Shown here: positions 15,469-56,603 of the stretch, in pieces
Layout: every line of letters begins with the position of its first letter
How positions within the stretch are numbered: position 1 is the stretch's first letter
Origin: Neorhizobium sp.
GTDB taxonomy: Bacteria > Pseudomonadota > Alphaproteobacteria > Rhizobiales > Rhizobiaceae
Length of the DNA: 64,000 bases
NCBI GenBank assembly: GCA_028283725.1
Contig: JAPWKC010000004.1
Coordinates: 1,364,001-1,428,000, forward strand
Direction: 5' to 3'
Notes under the pieces: model-generated
What the model was told of the DNA's origin: nothing
The model's input: only the letters and a program-made list of their open reading frames with translations
The model's database searches: none
Program-made: the position numbers and the translations under genes

Positions 15469-15578
15469 CTAGATCATCTCTTCATGAGACTGCGGGATGC
15501 TAACCGCACCCGGACAACAATAACCGGCCGGCATGGACAGACCGCAGAACGGCCCACCTGTCGGATCCTTCATTGCTG

Positions 15579-15605
15579 ATAGACGGCAAAGCTTGCGCGA
15601 GGATG
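15579..15605 (-). promoter_or_regulatory. Shared flagellar promoter box, flhA copy
   Basis: On the minus strand TCGCGCAAG is followed by nine bases and CTAT. The spacing is the same as in six other flagellar upstream regions of this window. The distance to the flhA ATG is 110 bases. This is the weakest match on the 5' side (no GACAG). Confidence 0.55.
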
Positions 15606-15716
15606 ATGCGCGCATAGAGCATCGTCCCGACAGCCGGAATCGATTTTCGGAAAGCCTGATGCGCAAATTCGAAAGACAGAACGTCCCTTTGTACGCCCTT
15701 ACGGACGCACGGCGCT

Positions 15717-21111: not shown

Positions 21112-21141
21112 GTCAGTCCTCGCTCAGTTTGTCAGTCACGA

Positions 21142-21170
21142 TTAGCTGGCGGGCCTTGCGTGAAGCTGTC
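21142..21170 (-). promoter_or_regulatory. Shared flagellar promoter box, flgE copy
   Basis: Minus strand: GACAGCTTCACGCAAG, nine bases, CTAA, ending 30 bases before the flgE ATG. The first 16 bases are identical to the motA copy. It lies in the only non-coding stretch upstream of flgE. Confidence 0.7.
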
Positions 21171-21302: not shown

Positions 21303-21974
21303 TTATTGCCAGTCGATGCAGTATCCGAGGAACCGCTTGCTGTCGATCGGATCGAAGCCCAGTTTCTTGCGCAGTTTCTTGCGCAGCTTGCTGACATGGC
21401 TCTCCACCACGTTCTCTTCGACGTCTTCGTCAAAGATGCCGTAGATGGCATTGAAGATCTGCGCCTTGGATACGCGGCGACCGCGGTTGGCGACTAGATA
21501 TTCGAGAATGCGGCGTTCGCGGCGCGGCAGGGGCATGACTTCGCCGCTGATCTCCGGATCGCGTCCGTCGGAGTAGACGCGGATCGGGCCAATCTCGGTC
21601 CAGTTCGAAATCGCCGTCAGACGACGACGGATCGCCGCGGCACGCGCCAGGATCTCGCGTGGATGGACAGGCTTGCGCACCACATCATCGACGCCGCAGT
21701 CGAAGAGCGCGAGCGTCGCCTCGAGCGAGGGCTGATCGCTGACGGCAATCACCGGAGCCTGCGAACGACCCCGTATCGTGCGCGGCAGCCCGTGTGCCAT
21801 TTCGCTCTGACCAATCAGAAACGTCTCGATGGCTACGATGTCCGAATCGGCCGCCGAGCTCATCCATTCACAAAATTCTTCCGGATCAAACCCCGTCGAC
21901 GGGATGCCTTCCCGTCCGAAAAGGGAGGTGTAACCGTCTTTGACGATTTCACGCTCATCAACCACCACGATCAT
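21303..21974 (-). CDS. rem: Orphan OmpR-type motility regulator Rem
   Basis: A 223-residue protein with an N-terminal receiver-like domain and a C-terminal winged helix (residues 128-220, [26 protein letters not shown]...[13 protein letters not shown]). In Sinorhizobium, Rem activates motility genes in exponential phase under VisNR control. The receiver is degenerate: the position of the phospho-acceptor Asp is Glu50 (IVAIE), though the acidic pair near the N-terminus (D6-E7) and the Lys in VVRKPVHP remain. It is therefore likely active without phosphorylation. It is monocistronic, with its own terminator and a 264-base upstream region. Confidence 0.9.
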
Positions 21975-27730: not shown

Positions 27731-27880
27731 GCGGACACTCCAGCCGACATCTCGAAGAGGCCGGCCGACAGCGCGGGTCTGCGGCGCACTGTTATACCGA
27801 ATGCCGTCACAATCATTGCCACCTTCGTCCTGAAATCGCATAGACCGACGCAGAAGGGCCGGCAGCTCATGGTGAGGACA

Positions 27881-27911
27881 CTAGAAAGCCAAACTTGTGC
27901 GAAGATGACCG
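27881..27911 (-). promoter_or_regulatory. Shared flagellar promoter box, FliH-like/motB operon copy
   Basis: Minus strand: CTTCGCACAAG, nine bases, CTAGTG. It is 150 bases before the preferred start of the FliH-like gene, or 39 bases before the alternative ATG at 27841. Confidence 0.65.
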
Positions 27912-28020: not shown

Positions 28021-28986
28021 TTACTGGAAAAGCGTCGCCAGAGACTGGAGATGCGAGTTTGCCATCGACAGGATCTGGGTCGAAAGGCTCTGCTGCGTCT
28101 GGTAGGCAGCCAGCTTGGTCGATTCCTCTTCCATGTCGGCATCGACGAGGCTCGACACCGTACCGTCCAGCGTCGAGCCAAGACCGGATACGAAGGTGGA
28201 CTGCGCGTCGATCCGGTTCGACATGGTGCCGAGCGTCGTACCAAGCGAGGTCAGCTGGCTGGCGATCTTGCTCACCACGCTGATCATGTCATCCAGCTGG
28301 TCATCGGTCGTGTTGTCATCGAGCGCGATCTCGGTGCCGCTATCGGTGTTGCCGGAACCACTGTCGAGCAAATAGTAGTTGCGCGCCGTTCCGGTGCTGT
28401 CGGAGGACAGAGTGTCGGCATCGATATTGCCGGTCAGAAGGCCGCGGGATGGGTCGGCGTTATCCACCAGCGTGTTGCTGCCGGCATCGAAGGTCAGATA
28501 CGACAACGAAACAGCGCCGGTGACCGTGCGGTGAAAATCGTTCGGAACCTGCTTGGTGCCGGCCGCCGCATCTTCCGTGTTGTAGAGCCAGTTGTCGCCG
28601 CTGAAGCTGGCGCCCTTGATGACCGACAGCAAGTTCTGCTTGAGGCCGGCAATCGTGGCGTTGATGGCGGACTTGTCGGTGGAGGATTCCTTGGCGGTCG
28701 TCAGCTGGCTGGTAATCTGATCGACGATATCGATGGCCGAATCGACGGCCTGATAGGCTGTATCCGTCTTCGATGCCCCGAGGCTCAGCGCATCGCCGAC
28801 GCTTGTGAGAACCTTGTTGTCCGATTTCATCGCGTTCGACATCGACCAGTAGCTGGCATTGTCGGAGGCCGATTCGATCTTGAGGCCGCTGCTCGTCCGC
28901 TCCTGTGTCTTATTAAGGTTGTCGGTCGAGGTCTTCAGCGTCTGAAGGGCGCTCTGGATGTAATTGACGGAAATGGCGTCGGACAT
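28021..28986 (-). CDS. flaD: Flagellin, divergent minor type (FlaD)
   Basis: A 321-residue filament subunit. The flagellin ends are conserved (SALQTLKTSTDNLNKTQERTSSGLKIESASDNASYW; DADMEEESTKLAAYQTQQSLSTQILSMANSHLQSLATLFQ). It is clearly unlike the three other copies in its middle, which is longer and Asp/Thr-rich, so it is likely a minor filament component. It has its own leader carrying the shared GGCATGA-type motif and its own terminator. The letter D is assigned by position only. Confidence 0.9.
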   Translation of the reverse strand: MSDAISVNYIQSALQTLKTSTDNLNKTQERTSSGLKIESASDNASYWSMSNAMKSDNKVLTSVGDALSLGASKTDTAYQAVDSAIDIVDQITSQLTTAKESSTDKSAINATIAGLKQNLLSVIKGASFSGDNWLYNTEDAAAGTKQVPNDFHRTVTGAVSLSYLTFDAGSNTLVDNADPSRGLLTGNIDADTLSSDSTGTARNYYLLDSGSGNTDSGTEIALDDNTTDDQLDDMISVVSKIASQLTSLGTTLGTMSNRIDAQSTFVSGLGSTLDGTVSSLVDADMEEESTKLAAYQTQQSLSTQILSMANSHLQSLATLFQ

Positions 28987-29059: not shown

Positions 29060-29217
29060 CATCCGGCCCGCGGCGCAGATGCGTCAGTATTTGTTAACGC
29101 GACGATCCCACATTCATGGTTAACAATTGCTTAACCATGATGGACCGCGTGAACAACACGCTTGCTTCTAGGCGCTCTGGCTTGCGCGAGGCCGCCGTGA
29201 GCGCCCATGAAATGGAT

Positions 29218-42061: not shown

Positions 42062-42091
42062 CACGTGTCTCCGTCTTTCTATCCGCAATAT

Positions 42092-42121
42092 CTAAAGAGA
42101 TAAACTTGCGTGGAACTTGTC
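42092..42121 (-). promoter_or_regulatory. Shared flagellar promoter box, flgB copy
   Basis: Minus strand: GACAAGTTCCACGCAAG, nine bases, TTAG, ending 30 bases before the flgB ATG (the same distance as at flgE). One extra base lies between GACA and CGCAAG compared with the motA copy. Confidence 0.7.
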
Positions 42122-45057: not shown

Positions 45058-45146
45058 CCGCCTTCTCCTGGCTATCCAAGGCAAACATCGCCCGGAAGTC
45101 AAAGTGCAGGCCGATCAATCCAAACTGGCGACCCACGCTGGCAGAG

Positions 45147-45175
45147 CTAGGCGGATTTGCTTGCGCGAAACTGTC
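45147..45175 (-). promoter_or_regulatory. Shared flagellar promoter box, flgF copy
   Basis: Minus strand: GACAGTTTCGCGCAAG, nine bases, CTAG, 89 bases before the flgF ATG. It faces away from the motA copy 32 bases further on, forming a divergent promoter pair. Confidence 0.7.
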
Positions 45176-45206
45176 GGTGAAAGCAGGGGGAATTTTCGCA
45201 TCGCCC

Positions 45207-45235
45207 GACAGCTTCACGCAAGGCAGTACCCCTAG
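45207..45235 (+). promoter_or_regulatory. Shared flagellar promoter box, motA copy
   Basis: Plus strand: GACAGCTTCACGCAAG, nine bases, CTAGTG, 38 bases before the motA ATG. This is the best consensus copy; its first 16 bases are identical to those at flgE. Confidence 0.72.
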
Positions 45236-45273
45236 TGAACATGAGGCAAGATTAGGTTGGGTGCGGACTAGAC

Positions 45274-49024: not shown

Positions 49025-50107
49025 TTGTCCGACGATCAGGATAAAGACAGTAAAACAGAAGACCCGACAGACAAGAAAAAGCGTGACGCCATCGAAAAGG
49101 GCAACACGCCGTCGTCAGCGGAAGTCACCCTGTTCGGCTCCACGCTGGCATTCTACGTCTATCTCGTTTTCTTCCTGCCCCAGAACGTGTCGCATCTGGG
49201 AGAGGTGCTGCGCGATTTTTTCGAACACCCCGAACAATGGAAGGTCGAGCGCAGTTCAGATCTGGTCAGCCTTCTGACCTATCTGATGATGCAATCGGCC
49301 GCATTCCTGCTGCCGATTGCCGTTTTGTTGATGTCTTTCGGGGTCATCTCGTCTGCTGCGCAGAACCTGCCGTCCGCCGTTCTTGAGCGTATTCGCCCGC
49401 AATGGAGCCGCGTTTCGCCGGTCAAGGGCTTCGGCCGTATCTACAGCCTGCAGGGCATGGTGCAGTTCGGCAAATCGCTGTTCAAGGTGATCATCGTTTC
49501 GGTCATCATGTATTACGTGCTGCGCAGCGACTTCTATGCCTCGCTTGATTCGATGTTCGCCGATCCGCAGACGATTTTCGGGGTGATGGTTCGCGTCACC
49601 AAGAAAATGGTGCTGGTCATCCTCGGCGCAACTTTTGTGGTCGCGGTCCTCGATATCGCCTGGACGCGGTATCACTGGTTCAGCGAACTCAAGATGACGA
49701 AGCAGGAAATCAAGGACGAGATGAAGCAGTCGCAGGGCGACCCTATGGTCAAGGCCCGGCAACGCTCGGTTGCACGCGACCGCGCGAGACGACGCATGAT
49801 CAACAGCGTTCCGCGCGCAACGATGATCATCACCAACCCGACACATTATGCAATTGCACTACGCTACGTTGCAGAAGAATCCGAAGCGCCGGTGGTGGTG
49901 GCCAAGGGCCAGGATCTCATCGCGCTTCGAATTCGTGAGATAGCCCAAGAGCATAACATTCCGATTTTCGAAGATCCGCCGCTCGCTCGCTCCATGTTTG
50001 CGCAAGTCTCGGTGGATAGCGTCATCCCGCCAGTCTTTTATAAAGCGGTCGCGGAACTGATTCACAAGGTCTATGCGTCGCGCCGCCAAAACAAACGGGT
50101 ACGTTGA
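49025..50107 (+). CDS. flhB: Flagellar export switch protein FlhB
   Basis: A 360-residue export gate protein with four membrane spans and a cytoplasmic domain with the self-cleavage motif NPTH ([15 protein letters not shown]), which switches export from hook to filament substrates. The TTG start at 49025 ([25 protein letters not shown]) was chosen over GTG 49013 because GAGG lies six bases before it and the protein then begins at the conserved family start. Confidence 0.94.
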
Positions 50108-50571: not shown

Positions 50572-50687
50572 GGCGGCCTCGCCTTAAAGAATGGTTAAGC
50601 GCGGCATGCTAGCAGTTGCTAGAAGTCCCTGGGCATGCCGAGCCCCTGAAATCAGCGATGTATGGCTGTGACTGAAGGAAATTCCCC

Positions 50688-52967: not shown

Positions 52968-53714
52968 TCAGTGGATGTAACCGAGCCTGATTGCCTTGGC
53001 GATCGCCTGGATCCGGTTGACCGAATCAAGCTTGATCGTGGCCGAGCCGAGATAGGCGTTGACGGTGTGAACCGAGAGCCCGAGCTTTTCGGCGATCTCT
53101 TCGCTGATACGGCCATCACCGGCCAGTTGCAGGCAGGCGATCTCGCGTTCGCTCAGCGATTCGGCCGGAACGCTGCGGCGTTCGTCAAGCGCCAGTAGGT
53201 CCATCATGACCTGGCAGCTGCGGACATGCTGATCGACGATCAGATCGCTGCCCAGATCGAGCATCGTTGCCATGAAGGCCACATAGCCGTTTCCGAGTGC
53301 TCCGAGGCGCACGGGGAAGGCGATACCGGAATAGGAAAGCTGCTCCTTCGGCAGCCTGCGCACCATCGGGGCGAAATCGCCGACATCGGTGAAACTGTTC
53401 TGATCGACGCCTTCCCAGACGAGCGGCAGAACCGACATCTCGATATGATCAAGGAACAGGTCGCCGTAGCAGGCCATGATCTGCGACTGCTGCTGGAGGG
53501 CGAGCGGCCCCCAATTCTCCAGCTCGCAGGCCAGCTTGCGCTTGTTGGGAAGGCCGGCGCCGGTAATGCGGAATACGGCAAAATGCCGGGCCTTCAACGT
53601 CTTCTGCATGGCGATCAGCTTCGGAAACACGTCCGAGCGGCTCGACGCGCGCTGAAGGCGAAGAGACTGGATATTGCCAGCGCCATCCGCCATGCCGCTT
53701 CTCGAATATCCCAT
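52968..53714 (-). CDS. visR: LuxR-type global motility regulator VisR
   Basis: A 248-residue regulator. An N-terminal ligand-type domain (residues 20-175) is followed by a C-terminal LuxR helix-turn-helix (SLSEREIACLQLAGDGRISEEIAEKLGLSVHTVNAYLGSATIKLDSVNRIQAIAKAIRLG). In Sinorhizobium, VisN and VisR form a heterodimer at the top of the flagellar hierarchy and activate rem. It lies 15 bases after visN. It converges on the DUF1217 gene. Confidence 0.92.
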   Translation of the reverse strand: MGYSRSGMADGAGNIQSLRLQRASSRSDVFPKLIAMQKTLKARHFAVFRITGAGLPNKRKLACELENWGPLALQQQSQIMACYGDLFLDHIEMSVLPLVWEGVDQNSFTDVGDFAPMVRRLPKEQLSYSGIAFPVRLGALGNGYVAFMATMLDLGSDLIVDQHVRSCQVMMDLLALDERRSVPAESLSEREIACLQLAGDGRISEEIAEKLGLSVHTVNAYLGSATIKLDSVNRIQAIAKAIRLGYIH

Positions 53715-53729
53715 CGGCCGCCAGTCCCC

Positions 53730-54467
53730 TTAAACCAGATTGTTGCGAACTGCGTATGCAATCGCCTCTGAACGCGTCTTTGTCGCTGTCTTGCGCATGA
53801 CGCTGGTAATGTAATTGTTGATCGTATTGCGAGAGATGCCGAGGATCACGGCGATCTCGTCGCTGGTCTTGCCTTCGGCGATCCAGAACAGGCATTCGAG
53901 CTCGCGCTCCGTCAATTCGAATTCGCGCTCCGTGCGGGCATTGCGGCCTTCGGCAAAGCTCGTTCCGTAGGCGGCCAGAAGCCCCACTTCCCGCAGACGC
54001 TCCTGGGACAGGATGATGCCTTCACGGAACAGGAGCATGAGCGAAAAGCGGGTGCGGCCGACACAGAAGGTCAAGGTGCAATATTGCCGGCTGATGTCAT
54101 CCGGCGGCATCACATCATCGGGCAGAAGCCCAAAGCTCGGCATCAGCAGCGAGAGGCATTTTTCGAGCTCGGTCGAGCGCGCGTAGCCTGCCGCGACGTC
54201 AGCGCCCAGTCTGCGCACCAGATCGAAGGGCCAGTTGGAGGACACGATGAAATCGAGCCCCTGCTCCTGCACAAGATCATAACGTGCGAGAAGAAAATGC
54301 GACGCAGCCACGTAGTCAGCCAGTTGACGCATGGTCGCCTGGATGTTGCCGGTACTGCTGGCAACCGCCAAGCGCTGCACGAGTTGCTCTCGTGACATGT
54401 GCTTGGCGCTCATCGGACGCTCGTAAGAGCTCCTGTCCGGTGCCCTGTCCGACCCAGGCAAATCCAT
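53730..54467 (-). CDS. visN: LuxR-type global motility regulator VisN
   Basis: A 245-residue partner of VisR. The C-terminal LuxR domain is visible (ELTERELECLFWIAEGKTSDEIAVILGISRNTINNYITSVMRKTATKTRSEAIAYAV). The N-terminal domain begins REQLVQRLAVASSTGNIQATMRQLADYVAASHFLLARYD. The start at 54467 has GGGGAG ten bases upstream; ATG 54413 (MSAKHM) is an alternative. The two-gene operon visN-visR is transcribed from the 54468-54777 region. Confidence 0.92.
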   Translation of the reverse strand: MDLPGSDRAPDRSSYERPMSAKHMSREQLVQRLAVASSTGNIQATMRQLADYVAASHFLLARYDLVQEQGLDFIVSSNWPFDLVRRLGADVAAGYARSTELEKCLSLLMPSFGLLPDDVMPPDDISRQYCTLTFCVGRTRFSLMLLFREGIILSQERLREVGLLAAYGTSFAEGRNARTEREFELTERELECLFWIAEGKTSDEIAVILGISRNTINNYITSVMRKTATKTRSEAIAYAVRNNLV

Positions 54468-56506: not shown

Positions 56507-56557
56507 TCTGTTCCCACATAGCCTGTCATGGATATCGAGCACACGCCCGATGCCACA

Positions 56558-56603
56558 CTATGTGCCGAAGCTTGTGCGAGCGTTTCGAAAACGCAAGCTT
56601 CGG
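56558..56603 (-). promoter_or_regulatory. Shared flagellar promoter box and inverted repeat, fliF copy
   Basis: Minus strand: CTCGCACAAG, nine bases, ATAGTG, ending 51 bases before the fliF ATG. It overlaps a perfect 10-bp inverted repeat CCGAAGCTTG/CAAGCTTCGG (56565-56574, 56594-56603) not seen at the other copies. This suggests fliF can be transcribed apart from the che operon. Confidence 0.6.

Follow-up and report, generated by a model that had tools for sequence, protein, structure and literature searches.

The question raised by this locus is which protein reads a short element that recurs ahead of its flagellar transcription units. The window, meaning the whole 64,000-nt stretch of DNA that was analysed, is part of C4 (positions 1364001-1428000) of a Neorhizobium sp. 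genome of 4.08 Mb that is 78% complete. It holds a flagellar cluster comprising flhA, fliQ, flgE, rem, a fliK-like gene, motC, motB, flagellin, flgB/C, fliI, flgF, motA, fliM/N/G, flhB, a DUF1217 gene, visR/visN and fliF, in which the labels rem, motC, fliK and visN/visR are presumed from rhizobial gene order. The original prediction was that seven units share a two-part signal, GACAG-YTTC-RCGCAAG or a variant followed at a constant distance by a CTAG-like tetramer. The coordinates and strands of all seven sites were correct, and in 7/7 exactly nine bases separate CAAG from nTAn. The complete 5' part is exact at motA, flgF and flgE only, the sites at flgB, fliF, 27881 and flhA being variants, with CACAAG instead of CGCAAG at fliF and 27881. 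This last site lies ahead of a 251-aa gene upstream of motB; the gene had been labelled FliH-like, a label that found no backing, as its product has no match in Pfam or NCBIfam at E 0.001. Each site resolves into a box of two units and a -10 element:

45207-45228, plus strand: motA box (unit 1 45207-45217, unit 2 45218-45228)
45233-45238, plus strand: motA -10, TAGTGA, with a predicted start at about 45245
45154-45175, minus strand: flgF box (units 45175-45165 and 45164-45154)
45144-45149, minus strand: flgF -10, TAGCTC
21149-21170, minus strand: flgE box (units 21170-21160 and 21159-21149)
21139-21144, minus strand: flgE -10, TAATCG
42099-42120, minus strand: flgB box (units 42120-42110 and 42109-42099)
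42089-42094, minus strand: flgB -10, TAGATA
56565-56586, minus strand: fliF box (units 56586-56576 and 56575-56565)
56555-56560, minus strand: fliF -10, TAGTGT
27888-27909, minus strand: box of the 251-aa gene ahead of motB (units 27909-27899 and 27898-27888)
27878-27883, minus strand: -10 of the 251-aa gene/motB promoter, TAGTGT
15586-15607, minus strand: flhA box (units 15607-15597 and 15596-15586)
15576-15581, minus strand: flhA -10, TATCAG

Pattern counts upheld the earlier argument that these sites are not a product of chance. With up to one mismatch, YTYRCRCAAG-N10-TA has 9 matches in the window versus 2.04 expected, a number reached in 0/100 shuffles. The exact core with its TA occurs 13 times in the genome (reversed pattern, 5), and 8 of the 13 matches fall in the window, which is 1.6% of the genome (binomial P ~4e-12). 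These eight are six of the seven sites together with one match ahead of flagellin and one in flhB; flgB has one mismatch. When the left half was added to the core, 11 exact genome matches were found, 7 of them in the window, and 26 with up to one mismatch versus 13 for the reversed pattern. We also built a weight matrix (PWM) from 111 sites of 18 same-genus relatives, excluding the window. Of ~128,000 window positions, it gives these seven the highest scores, 34.8 to 22.6, while the highest score in the reversed window is 13.7. Hits had been expected to gather near both motility and chemoreceptor genes: the concentration in the flagellar cluster held (8/13), whereas the chemoreceptor link is weak and consists of one low-scoring site (PWM 9.6).

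The element is a real operator-promoter that is conserved across many genera of the Rhizobiaceae. With the window counted in, the box is kept in 19/19 regions ahead of each of motA, flgE and flhA, in 19/19 ahead of flgB with 8-9 of 10 core positions, and in 16/16 ahead of fliF, three regions having no fliF. For the gene preceding motB, the core is complete in 17 of the 18 matrix-scored rows, and in the eighteenth, G031, it is present in the ortholog comparison. Ortholog mapping of flgF gave the full core in 12/19 regions, 9 with the full TA; six of the seven misses (G009, G029, G022, G015, G031 and G035) carry an exact box beside the motA box, and the seventh is G016. In the three closest relatives (G034, G032 and G030), the flgF box retains a single TA letter. 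The flanks diverge while box and spacing stay, and this is also the case across 20 genera (see below). No conserved box was found in relatives in the upstream regions of rem, visN, flhB, fliI and fliM, and autoregulation of rem through the box was rejected for this reason.

The core has 433 matches (256 reversed) in 36 same-genus genomes, the own genome included, versus 70 (111 reversed) in 21 genomes of the order that lack a Rem match. The signal fades outside the family: the strict core showed no enrichment in the 3 genomes from other families that carry Rem (16 versus 18 reversed), and G036, whose Rem is 40% identical, has CAAG boxes without a clear TA or -10. In G057 the motA box is strong, and no site scores above 11 in the region with flgE and flhA. 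A genome of another family, G052, has two boxes on the plus strand at L139:18933 and L139:19156 (scores 26.5 and 19.2), ~4-5 kb from rem, downstream of which no window gene was mapped.

The matrix columns form two 11-bp direct repeats, GMMAGCYTCRC and RCAAGYTTCNC, ahead of TANNNT. Column similarity at lag 11 has a cosine of 0.771 versus at most 0.18 at the other lags from 3 to 17, and was equalled by 0/20,000 column permutations. When one gene at a time was left out, the lag-11 cosine stayed between 0.717 and 0.786, with the runner-up lag reaching up to 0.31. Boxes of an 85-aa gene that were outside the training set gave a lag-11 identity of 0.763 versus at most 0.326 at other lags. Letter by letter the repeat is weak, since the units agree at 3-7/11 positions within single window sites, and over the seven window sites lag 13 (0.353) exceeds lag 11 (0.313). 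The best palindrome in the matrix is a weak, imperfect CTT..AAG with a cosine of 0.32; a palindromic, LuxR-type site was rejected, as in the matrix this value lies below that of the direct repeat. Repeat unit 2 includes the conserved Y and T of the supposed spacer.

The 3' part, previously likened to a -10, is a -10 of the type TANNNT at a fixed offset from CAAG. With the core picked irrespective of TA, CAAG-N10-TA was present in 117/127 upstream regions. The 10 regions without TA at this offset belong to flgF (9) and flgB (1); three of the nine (G034, G032 and G030) keep one TA letter, five are mapping misses and the last is that of G016. It had been left open whether CGCAAG is itself a -35 or a regulator site. 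The first option was ruled out on position and sequence: with a spacing of 16-18 bp, as for a canonical -35, no more than 3/6 bases match TTGACA. TTGAC-N18-TANNNT has a single window occurrence, inside fliI, versus 0.39 expected. With the T of the -10 set at -12, the box spans about -38 to -17, and it stands in place of a -35 at a fixed distance from the -10.

This arrangement resembles that of PhoB and the PHO box, in which two 11-nt direct repeats (PMC4415409) lie over the -35 position and are bound by a winged-helix activator of the OmpR type, according to the available portions of PMC4415409 and PMC3348028; about -38 to -17 is where PhoB-type activators sit in such descriptions. Three features of a PhoB-type promoter were found here: a direct repeat of two 11-bp units, seen in the matrix and in the 85-aa gene's boxes; a box at a fixed distance from the -10 where the -35 would be; and a linked gene for an OmpR-family regulator, which adjoins flgE:

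21303-21974, minus strand: rem, OmpR-type orphan response regulator and proposed binder, with a receiver domain under the Pfam cut-off

Rem matches Trans_reg_C at E 2.8e-16, and in our reading of the alignment has Glu (or Gln) at the presumed phospho-Asp position. It differs from PhoB in lacking a clear phospho-Asp by this reading and in being reported active without phosphorylation (PMC9812332, in the text available). The half-sites differ as well, being RCAAG/GMMAG here and CTGTCAT in the PHO box.

The window Rem is 82-87% identical to that of 79 named loci, mostly from Sinorhizobium/Ensifer, Rhizobium, Shinella and Agrobacterium. In Sinorhizobium and Agrobacterium, Rem is the class IB flagellar activator and has the same class of target genes, judging from the accessible parts of the literature; there, class II genes as a group are described as dependent on rem, and the available text of PMC9812332 has them directly activated by Rem. 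At the named loci, a box lies within 450 nt after rem in 76/79, with TA at the expected offset in 76/76. The three misses are L192, L193 and L208 (R. wenxiniae twice and R. smilacinae), and the rem copies in L193 and L208 have no flgE box after them. Two same-genus species have two rem copies ~10 kb apart, G014 at C49:131927 and C49:141610 and G028 at C1:1554848 and C1:1564579; the flgE of G028 carries the box.

Across the family, Rem was found in 257/297 genomes of at least 90% completeness and in 92/106 genera. We located rem in 27 distant genomes and took 20 regions from 20 genera, in which Rem is 45-66% identical. In 19/20 genera, the best site of the region lies 10-85 nt ahead of the mapped flgE, fliF or flhA start, measured from the core start to the extrapolated gene start. 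In the twentieth region (G080) flgE went undetected, and the best site is 244 nt upstream of flgK. Sites without TA are those at flgE of G068 and G120 and at fliF of G107; in G107 and G134 the flgE locus was named through other rod/hook-family matches. Three same-genus genomes, G004, G007 and G025, have core matches (at motA in G007) yet no Rem match, perhaps owing to an assembly gap. Three family members with small genomes, G148 (1.2 Mb), G127 (1.9 Mb) and G146 (1.5 Mb), retain rem together with boxes upstream of flgE and fliF; none of the three has a VisN or VisR match at E 1e-10.

The original prediction read the sites as class II promoters and offered Rem or VisNR as the protein bound at CGCAAG. 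The 11-bp direct repeat and the place of rem beside flgE favour Rem, and because the box is present in 20 distant Rem-bearing genera without a close VisN or VisR homolog, Rem is its likely binder. The element therefore follows Rem rather than VisNR, with the box found where Rem is found, apart from G004, G007 and G025. The operator most likely belongs to Rem and works in a PhoB-like manner. On the evidence of sequence comparison, the element is very probably the Rem operator-promoter and the class II switch, on which a Rem dimer would occupy the repeat and the housekeeping sigma factor the -10. Two Rem molecules would bind head to tail on the 11-bp units at about -38 to -17, replacing the -35, and the pair would hold RNA polymerase with its housekeeping sigma factor on the TANNNT -10, ten bases separating CAAG from the TA in this layout. 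As the OmpR/PhoB-type master activator of class II flagellar genes, Rem would thereby switch on motA, flgF, flgE, flgB, fliF, the motB operon and flhA together.

Four other readings were weighed against this one. VisNR, a LuxR-type pair encoded at 52968-54467, might bind the box while Rem acts elsewhere. The VisN and VisR genes, under their presumed labels, are in the same cluster, and the box contains the imperfect CTT..AAG palindrome noted above, but the matrix-level repeat is direct rather than inverted. Of 35 genomes searched at E 1e-10, all of which carry Rem, six have near full-length VisN and VisR of at least 46% identity: G100 and five from the same genus. The others gave HTH-region matches, long matches of at most 31% identity, or none; in the 20 box-bearing genera these were HTH-region or weak LuxR-family matches or none. 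Reviews, in the passages available, also place VisNR above rem, and we consider binding of the box by VisNR very unlikely. Binding by CtrA is highly improbable. CtrA is an OmpR-type regulator whose full site shares the 11-bp pitch and lies near the -35 when activating (PMC6180460, in part), and its TTAA-N7-TTAA site at the DUF1217 gene shares the distance to CTAG. Its half-sites are TTAA rather than RCAAG, however, and TTAA-N7-TTAA occurs at none of the seven promoters, its only two window copies being at flagellin and DUF1217. The S. meliloti flg/fli genes, moreover, are indirect CtrA targets, and the flagellins direct ones, in the available text of PMC4433202.

Two conserved blocks a fixed distance apart could also be the -35/-10 pair of an alternative sigma factor, a reading that we rate as highly improbable, on a par with CtrA. 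The 15 bases that lie between the start of CGCAAG and the 3' tetramer are too few for a -35/-10 pair, the -10 has the form TANNNT, and the upstream block is an internal repeat. Neither the sigma-54 nor the sigma-28 consensus is overrepresented in the window (2 versus 2.1 and 1 versus 1.9 expected, respectively), and both are absent from the seven sites. Finally, the boxes could be functionless and reflect the common descent of linked flagellar promoters, given that all seven are flagellar and most of the relatives compared are close. Box and spacing persist, however, while flanks diverge, the 20 genera included, the unlinked 85-aa gene has a box in 23/23 genomes where it was found, and the adjacent upstream regions of rem, visN, flhB, fliI and fliM have no conserved box. 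Of all these readings, common descent has next to no probability. The remaining sites in the window are the following, of which the two box matches were absent from the original prediction:

29120-29134, minus strand: CtrA-type TTAA-N7-TTAA ahead of flagellin
50584-50598, plus strand: CtrA-type TTAA-N7-TTAA ahead of the DUF1217 gene
29169-29190, minus strand: box match ahead of the flagellin gene 28021-28986 (PWM 16.3), with a weak left half
49997-50018, plus strand: in-frame box match inside flhB (PWM 21.0)

TTAA-N7-TTAA occurs twice in the window versus 0.12 expected from base shuffles. Ahead of flagellin it is also present in 9/20 other genomes examined, and ahead of DUF1217 genes in 0/7 relatives examined. 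The weaker form of the box that had been placed near 50595-50613 turned out to be the CtrA-type site at 50584-50598, and was taken for a box because that site keeps the Rem-box distance to CTAG. We consequently dropped DUF1217 as a weak regulon member, since its site is CtrA-type and not conserved ahead of the genes of seven relatives. Flagellin was likewise rejected as a Rem target, the match at 29169-29190 being unconserved in relatives and weak in its left half. The flhB match was left out of the regulon because it is in frame in a stretch conserved among relatives; it may reflect coding constraint or an internal promoter.

FtcR, the presumed Brucella ortholog of Rem, is likewise an OmpR-type flagellar master regulator. 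The box described here disagrees with the motif published for FtcR from in vivo ChIP, the 8-mer TGTGGGCA, which was reported in 118/363 peaks (PMC9456535, in the portion available). Exact TGTGGGCA was found in 0/129 regions reaching 200 nt upstream, and with one mismatch in 15/129 versus 21.4 in shuffles. Either the specificity differs or TGTGGGCA is not the flagellar operator. A Rem operator sequence was not found in the accessible text of the open-access literature searched, and the 2006 Rem paper may already describe one. Searches with the box letters or 'Rem box' gave nothing on rhizobial flagella among the matches listed. This kind of promoter is known, while the operator and its distal genes appear to be new within the literature searched. 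The candidate Rem operator could help to delimit the class II flagellar regulon across Rhizobiaceae genomes, and the box would separate Rem targets from those of VisNR and CtrA by sequence. An uncharacterised, unlinked 85-aa gene and, with less certainty, a second family would join the regulon as candidates for motility functions.

The best distal site encountered (PWM 31.3) lies ahead of this 85-aa ORF at C4:1020796-1021050 (L039:1560-1817, plus strand). It is a near-perfect repeat and the third-highest box encountered in the genome, below those of the 251-aa gene (34.8) and fliF (31.8). The fast-evolving protein matches nothing in Pfam or NCBIfam at E 0.1 and has a SSTLLSSSLANALW-type conserved core in relatives. 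In a protein search it was present in 23/24 same-genus genomes (own included; G019 missed) and in 0/16 genomes of other families. Its box is present in 23/23, 34-41 nt ahead of the start, with scores of 21.5-31.3. We would speculate, as a long shot, that the protein is a flagellar component not yet described. It might be exported and act as a checkpoint that reports completion of the hook-basal body, so connecting class II with class III expression; for S. meliloti, the available part of PMC6180460 calls this step unknown.

The second family, of 157-168 aa with an N-terminal hydrophobic stretch by our reading, was found among 20 distal pattern matches from those listed. Members with a box (scores 15.7-21.8) are present in the own genome, G022, G009, G029, G015 and G002; since the family was found through the pattern itself, genomes in which it lacks a box would go unseen. 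The own member has 157 aa (gene L038:850-1323, minus strand; box C4:439821-439846, minus strand), and its box lies 177 nt from the ORF start versus 8-44 nt in the five relatives. A PAS-domain protein with a box in G009 and G029 was likewise found through the pattern. Three other distal matches were rejected, as no support was seen from relatives: C2:368054 at a DUF882/M15 peptidase gene (PWM 15.4), C4:1350237 at a glycosyltransferase-like gene (PWM 20.2) and C4:1154820 inside a GNAT gene. Among the 15 one-mismatch matches, two are the flgB and flagellin sites, one is L333, and the other 12 score 5.2 to 24.9. The L333 sequence (C4:1429293-1429318, minus strand; PWM 9.6) is box-like, overlaps TTAACCAT and is common to two species (G011 L281). 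It precedes an ORF that we tentatively read as the first gene of the che operon, and it is possibly a joint Rem/CtrA site.
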